51,792 nucleotides of DNA from an uncultured Lachnospiraceae bacterium (GTDB lineage Bacteria; Bacillota; Clostridia; Lachnospirales; Lachnospiraceae), in contig CACYPS010000015.1 in assembly GCA_902776305.1 (NCBI GenBank), positions 1 through 51,792 on the forward strand. Reading direction: 5' to 3'. Under the pieces are notes generated by a model. It did no database searches and was not told where the DNA came from. It saw nothing but the letters and a program-made list of their open reading frames with translations. The position numbers were made by a program, and so were the translations under genes. Of this stretch, positions 36,007-51,792 are shown piece after piece. The first letter of the stretch is position 1. Each line of letters begins with the position of its first letter.

Positions 36007-36032
36007 AGGCTGCCGCATTAAAGCGGCAGCCT
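36007..36032. terminator. Hairpin between lacI-type gene and deacetylase gene
   Basis: AGGCTGCCGC-ATTAAA-GCGGCAGCCT, a perfect 10-bp stem followed on the plus strand by ATTTGTTT. It serves convergent genes. Confidence 0.8.
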
Positions 36033-49060: not shown

Positions 49061-49110
49061 TAGTATTAGCGATGTTTGTGAAAATTAATGTACGTGCAAC
49101 CAATTAAAAA

Positions 49111-49137
49111 GAAAAAGTGACAGCAGTGATGACACAA
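49111..49137 (+). repeat. Upstream copy of DUF1016-A palindrome
   Basis: Matches 24 of 27 bases of 49430-49456 inside the gene that follows. The core GTGACAGCAGTGATGACAC (49117-49135) is an imperfect palindrome centred 34 bp before the start codon. Confidence 0.8.
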
Positions 49138-49159
49138 ACTAAATCGAAAGGAAAGTGCT

Positions 49160-49582
49160 ATGAACGAGATTGATTGTACTTTCGTTGAAATATCGCAGGT
49201 CATAGAGAATGCACGTGAAAACGCTTATCGCAAGGTAAACGAAGAGCTGATTCTCATGTACCAGAAGGTAGGGAAGTTCCTTTCTGAAAAATCGCAAGAG
49301 GCCAGCTATGGTGACGGGTACATCGATGCCCTTGCTGTATATATTACGGAACAGTTCCCCGGCATTAAGGGTTTCAATCGCCGTGGACTTTATCGCATGA
49401 AGCAGTTTTATGAAACTTATGCCGGGAATGAAAAAGTGTCAGCACTGCTGACACAATTGAGTTGGACGAATCATTTGCTGATCATGTCAAGTAGCAAGAG
49501 TGATGAGGAACGTGAATTCTACATTCGCCTTGCAATTAAAGAACGATATAGTTCCCGGCAACTATGCTGGATCGATGATTAG
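49160..49582 (+). CDS. DUF1016 N-terminal-domain protein (A), lacking nuclease part
   Basis: A 140-residue protein matching the N-terminal domain of DUF1016 (YhcG-like) proteins: ENARENAYRKVNEELILMYQKVGKFL, YGDGYIDALAVYITEQFPGIKGFNRRGLYRMKQFYE and LTQLSWTNHLLIMS. Full members run to about 340 residues with a PDDEXK nuclease domain. Here the frame stops soon after KERYSSRQL, where the family continues towards the nuclease, so this is a truncated or shortened gene. AAAGGAAAGTGCT precedes the ATG. A 19-bp perfect palindrome lies inside (49436-49454). Confidence 0.8.
   Translation: MNEIDCTFVEISQVIENARENAYRKVNEELILMYQKVGKFLSEKSQEASYGDGYIDALAVYITEQFPGIKGFNRRGLYRMKQFYETYAGNEKVSALLTQLSWTNHLLIMSSSKSDEEREFYIRLAIKERYSSRQLCWIDD
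49436..49454. repeat. Perfect 19-bp palindrome inside DUF1016-A
   Basis: GTGTCAGCA-C-TGCTGACAC: 9-bp arms around one central C. It encodes VSALLT just before the LSW motif, 285 bp into the gene. Confidence 0.9.
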
Positions 49583-49606
49583 GGAGCGTGGTAATTAAAG
49601 AAGATC

Positions 49607-49637
49607 ACCACAAGTCTTCTTTCGGAGGACTTGTGGT
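49607..49637. terminator. Hairpin after DUF1016-A
   Basis: ACCACAAGTC (49607-49616) pairs perfectly with GACTTGTGGT (49628-49637). Without a clear T-run; it could end the transcript or protect its 3' end. Confidence 0.55.
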
Positions 49638-49667
49638 AAATGATTGTAATGATAATCTGACCTCATC

Positions 49668-49696
49668 TTGAAATTTCGCCTAAACGAAATTATAGT
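49668..49696 (+). promoter_or_regulatory. Promoter with embedded operator
   Basis: TTGAAA (49668-49673), 17-nt spacer, TATAGT (49691-49696). The inverted repeat AATTTCG-N6-CGAAATT (49672-49691) fills the spacer, suggesting repressor control. It would drive the genes from 49751 on. A second inverted repeat CTTTTGAG...CTCAAAAG lies at 49708-49738. Confidence 0.7.
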
Positions 49697-49750
49697 ATAA
49701 ATAATTACTTTTGAGGTCACAAATTGAAAACTCAAAAGGACGGAATGCAT

Positions 49751-49804
49751 ATGACTAAGACAAATCAGGAATATTTTGATTATCGGGAGATATCATATGT
49801 TTGA
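49751..49804 (+). CDS. Short upstream ORF (17 codons)
   Basis: MTKTNQEYFDYREISYV, with AAGGACGG before its ATG. Its stop overlaps the start of the next gene (ATG at 49797), so it may couple translation. Whether the peptide itself matters is unknown. Confidence 0.4.
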   Translation: MTKTNQEYFDYREISYV

Positions 49805-50246
49805 ACCAATTTTTTATGATGATTATGTCAAAGCTATAAAGACTAAGCAAATTCTTGGATATACTGGAGATTGTTATACGTTCTTTACGTTTTTGACGAG
49901 ACATTATTCGAATCAATATATCGAGACGGTGGCAAGACATATTTTAAATAGTGGTTGTATGAAGTGCTTTTTCTATGGAGTAGACAGTGTCAATTGGGAA
50001 ATGAAGTTTGACTTGATTGACAATGATCTTCATGCAACGGTAGATGACGTTTGTCTAACAAGTACTGTCGATAATGAAGATGAGTTCAGAGATGAATTGG
50101 ACTTGTCCATATGTATCGTGAAGAAGCCCAGTGATATTGTAATTCTATATGACGATGAAGCAGTATATAACAGTATGAAAACCAGACTATTCCAAGAAGA
50201 GAGAGATGCATGCGATAATTGGTATGAAAGAACATCGAAGTTGTAG
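49797..50246 (+). CDS. Hypothetical acidic protein
   Basis: A 149-residue protein, not recognised. It is soluble and acidic, with no signal peptide or helix-turn-helix; FEPIFYDDYVKAIKTKQI opens it and LSICIVKKPSDIVILYDDEAV lies in the middle. CGGGAG precedes the ATG. It follows the short ORF and precedes another unknown gene by 18 nt; all share low G+C. Confidence 0.7.
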   Translation: MFEPIFYDDYVKAIKTKQILGYTGDCYTFFTFLTRHYSNQYIETVARHILNSGCMKCFFYGVDSVNWEMKFDLIDNDLHATVDDVCLTSTVDNEDEFRDELDLSICIVKKPSDIVILYDDEAVYNSMKTRLFQEERDACDNWYERTSKL

Positions 50247-50264
50247 AATCATTGGGGGATCGTC

Positions 50265-51095
50265 ATGGAAAGAGATAGAGAAGATATAGAAGTTTTAAAC
50301 CTTCCGACAAAGGTAGAAGAAAGAATAAAACAAATAAAAGAAGATTATCTGGCAGCCTATATAATGATCGATGTTGCGGGGAAGAACGGACAAGAAATGC
50401 TCTCTGAAGAGCTTGAAAAAGCATTAAAGAATAGTCCCAAATTCTTGGCACTAAGTCATTATTTAGATGAAACATCCAGCGAAGAAGTCTGGTTGACCGA
50501 TGATAGTTACAATATCGAAGATGAATTGGATTCTGCCCTTATGCTTGAAGCTGTCAGAGGGAAAAATACCTACATCCATTATAGAGCAGCTGCTGATAGA
50601 GTTGATAAAACAAAAAAACTTCTTGAAAAAGCGACAGAAGAAAAAATAAAGGAAAATAGTCTTCTGTTTGAATGGGCAAAAGAAGACGATGAGTATATAT
50701 TACATATCAGGAAAAGGGTAATGCCTGAATATGAGTATACACTTCGTTTATATCAGGATGGAAATGGCGTCGTAATATATGAATCGAAATGCAATTCTGA
50801 GATAAACTATTTTAGAATAAAAGAGGCTCTCAGAAAAAATATTGTATCACGAGTGTCTGAAAAGGTTGATTATATAGTTTCTCATCCGGAGGAAGTCCAT
50901 GAAGATGATCGTTATTTTGGCTGTCCCGTGCATTGCAGATATGGACTGAAATGGAAGTATAATAATGCCTATGATATGCTAAGTGATTATATGATATATG
51001 AGGACTGCGATTATGGTTTTGATGAGTATGAAACGGAGATAGCACGTATGCTGCTTGAGGCTCCTGAGGTTAGCAGTATCTGGATGAAGCATTGA
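50265..51095 (+). CDS. Hypothetical protein, possibly defence or mobile-element linked
   Basis: A 276-residue soluble protein, not recognised. It has charged helices (TKVEERIKQIKEDYLAAYIM; RVDKTKKLLEKATEEKIKENS) followed by a beta-rich part (YEYTLRLYQDGNGVVIYESK) and an acidic end rich in Asp and Tyr. GGGGGATCGTC lies before the ATG. It is part of the 49.75-51.6 kb gene set. Confidence 0.7.
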   Translation: MERDREDIEVLNLPTKVEERIKQIKEDYLAAYIMIDVAGKNGQEMLSEELEKALKNSPKFLALSHYLDETSSEEVWLTDDSYNIEDELDSALMLEAVRGKNTYIHYRAAADRVDKTKKLLEKATEEKIKENSLLFEWAKEDDEYILHIRKRVMPEYEYTLRLYQDGNGVVIYESKCNSEINYFRIKEALRKNIVSRVSEKVDYIVSHPEEVHEDDRYFGCPVHCRYGLKWKYNNAYDMLSDYMIYEDCDYGFDEYETEIARMLLEAPEVSSIWMKH

Positions 51096-51104
51096 AGGAA
51101 CATC

Positions 51105-51197
51105 ATGGAAAGAAAAAAGAAAGTGACAAAATCAAAGTTAGATTTGCCAGACGCTGTCTGGTATTCTATGAAAGAAGGATTATTACATGGAAAATGA
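51105..51197 (+). CDS. Short ORF (30 codons) before DUF1016-B
   Basis: MERKKKVTKSKLDLPDAVWY opens a 30-residue basic peptide; GAAGGAACATC precedes the ATG. Its stop overlaps the DUF1016-B start by 11 nt. It spans the upstream palindrome copy, so it may be incidental to that site. Confidence 0.4.
   Translation: MERKKKVTKSKLDLPDAVWYSMKEGLLHGK
51145..51163 (+). repeat. Upstream copy of DUF1016-B palindrome
   Basis: TGCCAGACGCTGTCTGG matches 16 of 17 bases of 51472-51488 inside the next gene. The centre is 33 bp before the start codon, almost the same distance as in DUF1016-A. Confidence 0.8.
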
Positions 51198-51666
51198 AGT
51201 GATTGTACCTGGAGGACTTGTTGCTGAGATTAGACAGATAATGAATATGGCGAGGCAGAATGTTGCAAAGCAGGTTAACAGCGAACAACTTTTTGCCTAT
51301 TGGAATATCGGCCGCGTAATCGTGGAATACGAGCAAAACAGTAATGAGCGGGCTGGCTATGGAAAAGAAACGATCAAGCAGCTTTCACAAGTCTTATCAA
51401 AGGAGTTTGGGAAAGGGTTCTCCCGTTCCAACCTTCAGAATATGCGCTCCTTATATTTGACCTACCCAAAATGCCAGACACTGTCTGGCAAATTGACATG
51501 GTCACATTACTGTGAACTCGTGGTGATTTCTGACCCGGATCGCCGTAGTTTTTATGAAAAGGAATGTGAACGCTCTGGTTGGTCGGTCAGGGTGCGTTTT
51601 GCGCCGCCCAGTGGCCACCAGTGCGTTTGCCAGTGGCCACCCGGCGTTGCCAGTGGCCGGGGTTAA
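51187..51666 (+). pseudogene. DUF1016 protein (B) truncated by IS21-like insertion
   Basis: Starts like a normal DUF1016 protein: AEIRQIMNMARQNVAKQVNSEQLFAYWNIGRVIVEYEQ, then FSRSNLQNMRSLYLTYPK and LSGKLTWSHYCELVVISDPDRRSFYEKECERSGWSVR. After residue 135 (near 51591) the frame runs into the insertion sequence end (VRFAPPSGHQCVCQWPPG) and stops at 51666. The nuclease half is lost or lies beyond the IS. A perfect 19-bp palindrome is at 51472-51490. Confidence 0.85.
51472..51490. repeat. Perfect 19-bp palindrome inside DUF1016-B
   Basis: TGCCAGACA-C-TGTCTGGCA: 9-bp arms around one central C. It encodes CQTLSG just before the LTW motif, 294 bp into the gene; the equivalent site in gene A is 285 bp in. 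Confidence 0.9.
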
Positions 51667-51792
51667 TCAGCCACTTTTCGTTCAATCATAACGATGTAGT
51701 GTTTCGTCACCCGCTTGAGCAGCGAGTTGGATGATACCTCATCCTCCATCAGCATGGAGGGCCATGCCTTTGGCTCGCGCTGCGAGCAGATA
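51592..51792 (-). mobile_element. IS21-like insertion sequence, end with terminal repeats
   Basis: The element starts near 51592, where the DUF1016 frame breaks. CCAGTGGCC recurs at 51608, 51630 and 51650, about 21 bp apart, as in IS21-family ends that carry several transposase-binding repeats. The helper gene follows on the minus strand and runs out of the window. Confidence 0.75.
51663..51792 (-). CDS. istB: IstB-like transposition helper ATPase, C-terminal fragment
   Basis: Forty-two codons and a stop are inside the window: SQREPKAWPSMLMEDE then LLKRVTKHYIVMIERKVAD. The pattern fits the end of IS21-family IstB, the AAA+ helper of the transposase. The gene begins beyond the window end. The call rests on this short piece and the flanking IS-type repeats. 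Confidence 0.7.
   Translation of the reverse strand, partial: ICSQREPKAWPSMLMEDEVSSNSLLKRVTKHYIVMIERKVAD

Follow-up and report, generated by a model that had tools for sequence, protein, structure and literature searches.

Why should two genes on one bacterial contig each contain a perfect palindrome within the coding sequence and a copy of that palindrome shortly before the start codon? The question is raised by contig CACYPS010000015.1 of assembly GCA_902776305.1, from an uncultured Lachnospiraceae bacterium, of which positions 1 to 51,792 of the forward strand (the window) were analyzed. The two genes, A and B, belong to the DUF1016 family. An initial annotation had described the 19-bp palindromes and their upstream copies, and these lie where it placed them, at the distances that it gave. 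It had also proposed that the DUF1016 N-terminal domain (N-domain) binds its own site in a gene-specific manner. Gene-specific self-binding now appears very probable, on the strength of covariation, of a test on new genes and of a ParB-like layout of the reading helices. Most DUF1016 genes have a palindrome of their own in the codons for the loop that joins the recognition helix to a conserved L(S/T)W motif, and the variable bases of this palindrome are predicted by protein residues that lie outside the encoded loop. The features in the window are listed below, with palindrome pairs numbered k1, k2 and so on outward from the centre.

49108 to 49137: upstream copy of the gene A site, 26 of 30 bases identical, centre 49126, 34 bp before the start codon and 319 bp from the internal centre
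49160 to 49582, plus strand: gene A, 140 amino acids, DUF1016_N domain only (Pfam PF17761, E=2.3e-37)
49376 to 49396, plus strand: putative recognition-helix codons of gene A (N R R G L Y R); in family numbering, R69 agrees with the G at k7 and Y72 with the T at k8
49431 to 49459: internal palindromic site of gene A, perfect 19-bp core 49436 to 49454, centre 49445, 18 nt before the W codon
49466 to 49477, plus strand: putative second reading-helix codons of gene A (T..L after LSW); T94 agrees with the G at k3 and L97 with the A at k4
51142 to 51165: upstream copy of the gene B site, centre 51154, 33 bp before the start codon and 327 bp from the internal centre
51187 to 51592, plus strand: gene B, DUF1016_N, the N-terminal part of an interrupted gene (Pfam PF17761, E=7.2e-43)
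51421 to 51441, plus strand: putative recognition-helix codons of gene B, S79 to N85 (family numbering 67 to 73)
51467 to 51495: internal palindromic site of gene B, perfect 19-bp core 51472 to 51490, centre 51481, 18 nt before the W codon
51502 to 51513, plus strand: putative second reading-helix codons of gene B, S106 to C109 (family numbering 94 to 97)
51586 to 51588, plus strand: codon of V134 of gene B (family numbering 122), first residue of the putative third helix

Both genes exceed the curated Pfam cut-off of 32.8 bits (128.6 bits for gene A and 146.4 for gene B), and both are incomplete: no YhcG_C nuclease domain is present within 1.5 kb downstream of gene A, and gene B is broken near 51593 by an IS21-like element at the contig end. 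Relative to the start codons, the internal centres stand at +285 (gene A) and +294 (gene B) and the upstream centres at -34 and -33. The best match in the window to each internal 19-mer is its own upstream copy (16/19 and 17/19, with a runner-up of 13/19), which bears out the claim that each upstream site matches its own gene. Palindromes were scored as paired bases minus 2 per mismatch, with arms of up to 14. The whole window holds three with a score of at least 9, two of which are the sites of genes A and B, and three mononucleotide-shuffled windows gave 1, 0 and 1. The third, at position 36019, has a score of 10 and is even-centred.

To place these genes in their family, DUF1016_N genes were gathered from the window's taxonomic family, a wide genome collection, the window's phylum, 13 plasmid records, one phage-labelled record, E. 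coli K-12, multi-copy genomes and the phyla of genomes G547 and G546. This yielded 257 distinct genes; four without an aligned W of L(S/T)W were dropped, leaving 253, the window genes included. Representatives, defined as genes below 70% identity, number 146, or 149 in the fixed-centre analysis, which selected by locus identifier. Between the recognition-helix methionine and the W, a palindrome with a score of at least 8 occurs in 180 of the 253 genes and in 100 of the 146 representatives. Synonymous-codon shuffles (20 per gene) reach this score in 1.9% of cases for all genes and 2.1% for representatives, and other windows of the same genes do so in 1.1% (n=648) and 1.4% (n=364). The codon-shuffled control that the initial annotation had named thus speaks strongly for the palindrome. 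Its centre lies exactly 18 nt before the W codon in 65 of those 100 representatives and, with the centre fixed, at least 7 of the 8 pairs at k2 to k9 form in 77 of 98 standard-loop representatives, compared with 4.5% of shuffles. This nuclease family has members in 111 of the 250 genomes sampled from the taxonomic family of the window, as well as in E. coli K-12 and in archaea-labelled metagenome-assembled genomes. A search of viral contigs with six gene B peptides found no relative, and eight records of a phage collection contained a match.

The palindrome has a frame of roughly AATT-N7-CANTG-N7'-AATT, in which the N7 arms are gene-specific and covary with one another. Among the 98 standard-loop representatives, the CANTG centre is largely fixed (k1 is A-T in 66 and k2 is C-G in 79), as is the outer AATT (k10 is T-A in 66, k11 T-A in 49, k12 A-T in 76 and k13 A-T in 77); the right-hand AATT follows in part from the K-L codons of the protein. 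The variable positions k3 to k9 pair at frequencies of 0.82, 0.86, 0.93, 0.81, 0.91, 0.84 and 0.68, whereas column composition predicts 0.33, 0.32, 0.56, 0.34, 0.32, 0.38 and 0.31. Examples are CAATTGTCGCGACACTGTCGCGACAATTG (locus L143, a Klebsiella plasmid), CAATTGTGCACACAGTGTGTGCACAATTG (L241) and GCTACGCACTGCGTAGC. A ACGCACTGCGT-type site is found in a gut commensal relative. The encoded loop peptide is free to change (QTLSGK, ALRSEL, VATLSRQ, VQQPAAQ) while the pairing is kept, and therefore it is the DNA and not the peptide that is conserved.

Mutual information between residues outside the loop and the variable bases was calculated for the 193 of the 253 genes that have an odd palindrome of at least 7 (effective number 128). 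The non-loop residues that ranked highest once corrected were 94, 122, 69, 72, 97, 67 and 73, with a step down past 97 (from 0.29 to 0.16). An R at residue 69 accompanies G at k7 in 47 of 47 genes. Residue 72 is associated with k8, where E goes with C (9/9) and Y, W, F or M with T (51/52). Two residues are associated with k3: S at 94 goes with A (93/100) and G with C (20/20), while R at 122 goes with C (30/33) and T or S with G (24/24). At k4, C at residue 97 goes with G (55/56) and R with C (41/46), and at k6 a D at residue 67 goes with G (17/18). Because these counts include related genes, kinship was controlled with 89 non-overlapping sister pairs and 774 residue-base combinations; the eight strongest combinations all fall in the first two helices (p 4.5e-9 to 6.4e-5). 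When clusters of genes were held out and no more than three residues were used, k3, k4 and k8 were predicted at 0.75, 0.79 and 0.83, against majority values of 0.42, 0.42 and 0.51, and k6, k7 and k9 at 0.69, 0.60 and 0.57.

A further test used genes that had played no part in deriving the rules, which were fixed from the covariation tables before the new sequences were inspected. Sixty further regions, taken in list order from unfetched matches in the phyla of G547 and G546, supplied 59 distinct genes. A palindrome of at least 7 was found in 47 of these, and the test set comprised the 32 that have such a palindrome and show less than 75% identity to any earlier gene. The rule for residue 94 was right in 26 of 30 cases (9.9 expected with permuted bases), that for residue 122 in 27 of 30 (10.8 expected), that for residue 69 in 18 of 18 (11.8 expected) and that for residue 72 in 10 of 10 (6.8 expected), so that the rules held at four of five testable positions. 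Both window genes, which belong to the training set, also agree with the code at residues 69, 72, 94, 97 and 122; for gene B, the agreement at 69 and 72 is with the commonest base only. In L041 and L042, T94 is accompanied by T at k3 in the internal and upstream sites alike, and L043 has an internal/upstream pair of the same kind.

The covarying residues map to model helices 80-92, 105-112 and 134-142, a layout like that of the specificity residues in helices a4, a6 and a8 of ParB/Noc; the third helix (residue 122) rests on the mutual information and the new-gene test, not on the sister pairs. According to a study of ParB/Noc, the recognition helix reads the outer bases of the palindrome and a6 the inner ones, and a few residues suffice to switch specificity (PMC7383237). 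As is proposed for DUF1016, ParB/Noc proteins with their parS/NBS sites combine a helix-turn-helix with two further helices that read a palindrome. DUF1016 differs in its fusion to a PD-(D/E)XK nuclease, in having no general neighbour and in a site that changes from nearly every gene to the next. A profile match to ParB covers the LSWSHY segment. The Pfam scan of genes A and B returned DUF1016_N only, with neither a ParB profile nor the CTP-binding N-terminal domain of ParB, and a sequence search of the PDB gave no match to gene B at E<=10 and three matches to the family profile (E 0.2 to 0.6) that we take as chance. The reading domain appears to work like that of ParB/Noc, and the proteins are not members of the ParB family proper. 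A parS site is placed inside spo0J of B. subtilis, which our searches did not confirm. On the Nostoc plasmid L140 (1947-3978), a single small gene separates parA from a DUF1016 gene downstream of it, and for this DUF1016 gene a ParB-like role is conceivable.

Is the pair of sites, as distinct from the internal palindrome, a property of the family? The initial annotation had treated the pair as one feature; its internal member proved general, but the upstream copy is confined to a minority. An own-like upstream match of at least 17/23 occurs in 7 of 94 representatives, as against 1.1% when the sites of other genes serve as the query. Of these seven, two are doubtful: that of L174 falls within a split coding match, and that of L251 is not palindromic. 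A family rule of two sites about 320 bp apart, with looping between them, is rejected on these numbers, and homologues without an upstream copy, which had been named beforehand as evidence against the proposal, are the majority. The 11 of 83 first-set rows with an internal palindrome that have an upstream copy 319-329 bp from its centre include both window genes and L036, which is nearly identical to gene B. Partial gene duplication, also raised initially, fails as the source of the upstream sites of L028, L038 and L235, whose palindromes are longer and closer to perfect than the internal ones, and is possible for gene A, in which the upstream/internal similarity extends beyond the palindrome past one arm. 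An upstream CANTG palindrome is commoner in genes without an internal one (8/35 with a score of 5 or less, versus 9/177 with a score of 8 or more, intermediate scores being left out; p=0.002). In L098 the upstream palindrome starts 3 nt past a promoter-like pair, of a kind that shuffles yield too.

A second own-like site (at least 17/23) within the N-domain coding sequence is present in 9 of 95 representatives, versus 0.8% across genes. E. coli K-12 yhcG (L139, 5828-6995) has three internal palindromes 39 nt apart, Paraburkholderia L144 has two with the same spacing, and several long-loop genes have two or three mutually similar sites. Downstream, own-like copies show no excess (1/91 at 17/23 or better, versus 1.1%), and K-12 yhcG and L086 have one. 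That of yhcG, its fourth palindrome, is perfect with 12-bp arms and lies about 27 nt after the stop codon. Around codon 77 of L152 (Sulfurimonas), a second near-palindrome of the same type is encoded (SIVATVSRQL). A search for independent second palindromes that relied on score alone picked out 15 of the 253 genes, mostly noise, with an identity to the gene's own site of 3.2/7 compared with 2.0 between genes, and was replaced by the own-versus-cross test.

Across genomes, the 17-bp form GCCAGACANTGTCTGGC is found in 6 of 397 genomes of the family, once in each and always in a DUF1016-type loop as recognized by peptide motif, so that each of those genomes has no exact copy other than the one inside the gene. 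The 17-bp core of the gene B site occurs once in G000, the genome of the window. Scatter of sites through the genome, as with REP/RAYT-like dispersed palindromes, was not seen for the one code (the GCCAGACANTGTCTGGC core) and the one loose pattern tried; the loose 13-mer gave 11 matches in G000 against 9 for the control. Special avoidance of equal codes among paralogues was considered and dropped: 105 of 106 same-genome pairs differ, as do 99.2% of 1910 between-genome pairs.

What might such a site be for? Since residues outside the loop predict the bases, since the rules hold on new genes and since the layout resembles that of ParB, we consider it very likely that the N-domain reads the palindrome of its own gene as duplex DNA. 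A ParB/Noc-like helix-turn-helix would bind as a symmetric pair, its recognition helix reading the outer bases k6 to k8 and two further helices the inner bases k3 and k4. Lock and key would then sit within about 200 bp of one gene and therefore move and diverge together. The bound protein may block transcription of its own gene, as a road-block inside the gene or, in genes with an upstream site, from an operator near the start. Such repression would keep a dangerous PD-(D/E)XK nuclease scarce, and the internal operator would travel with a mobile nuclease gene and let it control itself wherever it is inserted, while differing codes would stop different copies from silencing one another. Autorepression is the purpose that we favour for the site, at roughly even chances, and self-binding with autorepression, taken as a whole, seems to us a reasonably probable account.

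Several observations weigh against this account. Among the sister pairs, column 34 (k5), which lies outside the helices, just passes the corrected limit (p 6.4e-5), and residue 122 is absent from the 25 best combinations. In the held-out clusters k5 is unpredicted (0.64 versus a majority of 0.69). Of 40 sets of columns drawn at random, the best scored 0.70, 0.59 and 0.80 at k3, k4 and k8; because random sets come this close, and because the same data had served to choose the features, the held-out test lends weak support. On new genes the rule for residue 97 is weak (7 of 11 right, 5.7 expected) and that for residue 67 uninformative (2 of 2, 2.0 expected). The outer pairs k10, k11 and k13, like k1, pair no more than composition predicts, and 35 genes have no clear internal palindrome (score of 5 or less). 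The model N-domain matches ParB/Noc at middling Z, a level that could reflect no more than a common arrangement, and the alignment of the profiles over their full length is poor (5%). As regards autorepression, most genes have no upstream copy, so repression would have to act from inside the gene. The upstream/internal trade-off falls to 3/20 versus 6/100 on dereplication (p=0.17), some of the nine upstream palindromes are unlike the gene's own site, and promoter-like matches are no commoner in real sequence than in shuffles. Finally, a PD-(D/E)XK domain (PF06250-type) is present in 236 of 253 genes and its catalytic residues E214, D238, [DE]253 and K255 in 61 of 61 sequences of alignment A2, and autorepression alone needs no nuclease.

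Given this near-universal catalytic nuclease, the main rival is that the site serves to target the nuclease or to restrain it. The protein might bind its own palindrome and, under some condition, cut at or near it, so that the site would mark same-allele copies for cutting, whether as copy control, to exclude incoming elements with that allele or for gene conversion from copy to copy. The single exact copy per genome would suit such an enzyme, as would the location of DUF1016 genes on plasmids, beside integrases and in type I restriction-modification loci, and the match of PADLOC candidate defence profiles PDC-S02 to the family (3 of 3 proteins, best E 1.6e-135, the label being that of a candidate only). 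However, the gene keeps its site intact, so that an active enzyme would cut the chromosome that encodes it, and no potentially protective neighbour recurs: in an analysis of short flanks by BLAST clusters, with identities judged by eye, the largest cluster covers 14 of 245 loci and consists of the nuclease part of broken copies, and the next two cover 11. The nearest folds of the nuclease domain are of the EndoMS/NucS type, which is linked to mismatches or branched DNA rather than to palindromes. We regard self-targeting as unlikely. A broader idea, which we advance tentatively and hold to be rather improbable, is that of a self-addressed nuclease family, in which each allele would write a DNA address in its own frame and read it with the surrounding helices. 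The address would set compatibility groups between mobile copies, incoming copies being silenced or cut if they share a code already present and tolerated if theirs is new, and the whole family would amount to a natural, machine-readable protein-to-DNA code.

A hairpin in mRNA or single-stranded DNA, read by the protein or acting on translation, is very improbable. Perfect palindromes of up to 29 bp can fold, and minus-strand terminator-like calls fall on both window sites (3 in the region, 1.0 expected). Among the k2 to k9 pairs of 121 representatives, however, 899 are Watson-Crick, and the mismatches comprise 11 G.T, 34 A.C and 24 others. Duplex DNA is the likely form because G.T is rare, whereas RNA or single-strand folding would favour it; control through RNA, one of the initial suggestions, is disfavoured on this ground, and a conserved RNA hairpin in a coding region would show the G-U tolerance that these sites do not. 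Moreover, the CANTG centre is largely fixed in sequence and not in pairing alone, as the C-G at k2 illustrates, and the residue-base covariation resembles contacts with duplex DNA. We give equally little credence to a recombination site read by another protein, such as a neighbouring integrase or resolvase. DUF1016 does follow an annotated integrase gene directly in four plasmid loci (L142, L143, L145 and L146, with a 4-bp overlap in three of the four), but no neighbour is general and the bases covary with residues of DUF1016 itself. Ordinary causes (chance, codon usage, peptide conservation or a partly duplicated gene start), to which the one-sided similarity in gene A and the repeated QTLSGKL of one clade might point, are refuted for the internal palindrome, since shuffles and other windows reach only 1-2%, pairing is kept while the peptide varies, and the code lies outside the loop and held on new genes, and overall they retain next to no probability.

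Self-binding and autorepression may be set beside known systems. In phage repressor immunity groups and the control proteins of restriction-modification systems, protein and operator co-diverge in the same way and relatives do not cross-react; their operators lie outside the coding sequence, whereas the DUF1016 site is flanked on both sides by codons for helices of the reader itself. Homing endonucleases are also sequence-specific nucleases encoded by mobile genes, but a homing gene interrupts its own site and the DUF1016 gene keeps its palindrome intact. The family itself is already catalogued as DUF1016, YhcG, COG4804 and PADLOC candidate PDC-S02. In a network study, YhcG is reported together with HsdMRS, McrABC, IntF, IntS and PinE, and its deletion is synthetic-lethal with dnaB, dnaN and parE alleles (PMC2672614). 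A 2005 report gives no confident match of the N-terminal domain to known structures (PMC1189080). No self-site or residue code is described in the accessible portions of the licence-limited literature searched, and we found no precedent for the arrangement, a site inside the reader's own gene, although the reader is of a known kind. The N-domain of this widespread nuclease family thereby gains a first testable function. Most genes appear to contain their own target, which would make DNA specificity readable from sequence alone and provide hundreds of natural reader-site pairs for the ParB-like domain and for the design of DNA-binding proteins. The arrangement also raises the question of how lock and key co-evolve within a single open reading frame.

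Some minor observations concern the genome of the window. A lone perfect site, AATTTAACAGACACTGTCTGTTAAAATT, lies at about 1490-1525 of L164 (G000 C23:17414), and inspection by eye of the open reading frames of at least 80 codons in 3 kb around it revealed no DUF1016-like frame. The third DUF1016 gene of G000 (L005, 535-3216, contig C4) stands between two type I methylase-like C-terminal copies, as if inserted with duplication; it has no clear loop palindrome, and its upstream palindrome misfits its own residue code. Gene B has an uninterrupted counterpart in L036, of 341 codons and 99% identical over residues 1-135. The IS21-like element that interrupts gene B spans 51593-51792 of the window and 900-1380 of L001 and splits the gene between contigs C15 and C84; the nuclease (C-terminal) part of gene B is very probably the one on C84 (L001). 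L001 also carries an open reading frame that is istA-like by sequence. Short GGCCACTGG repeats lie at the ends of the element, and both of its junctions are flanked by the same six bases.

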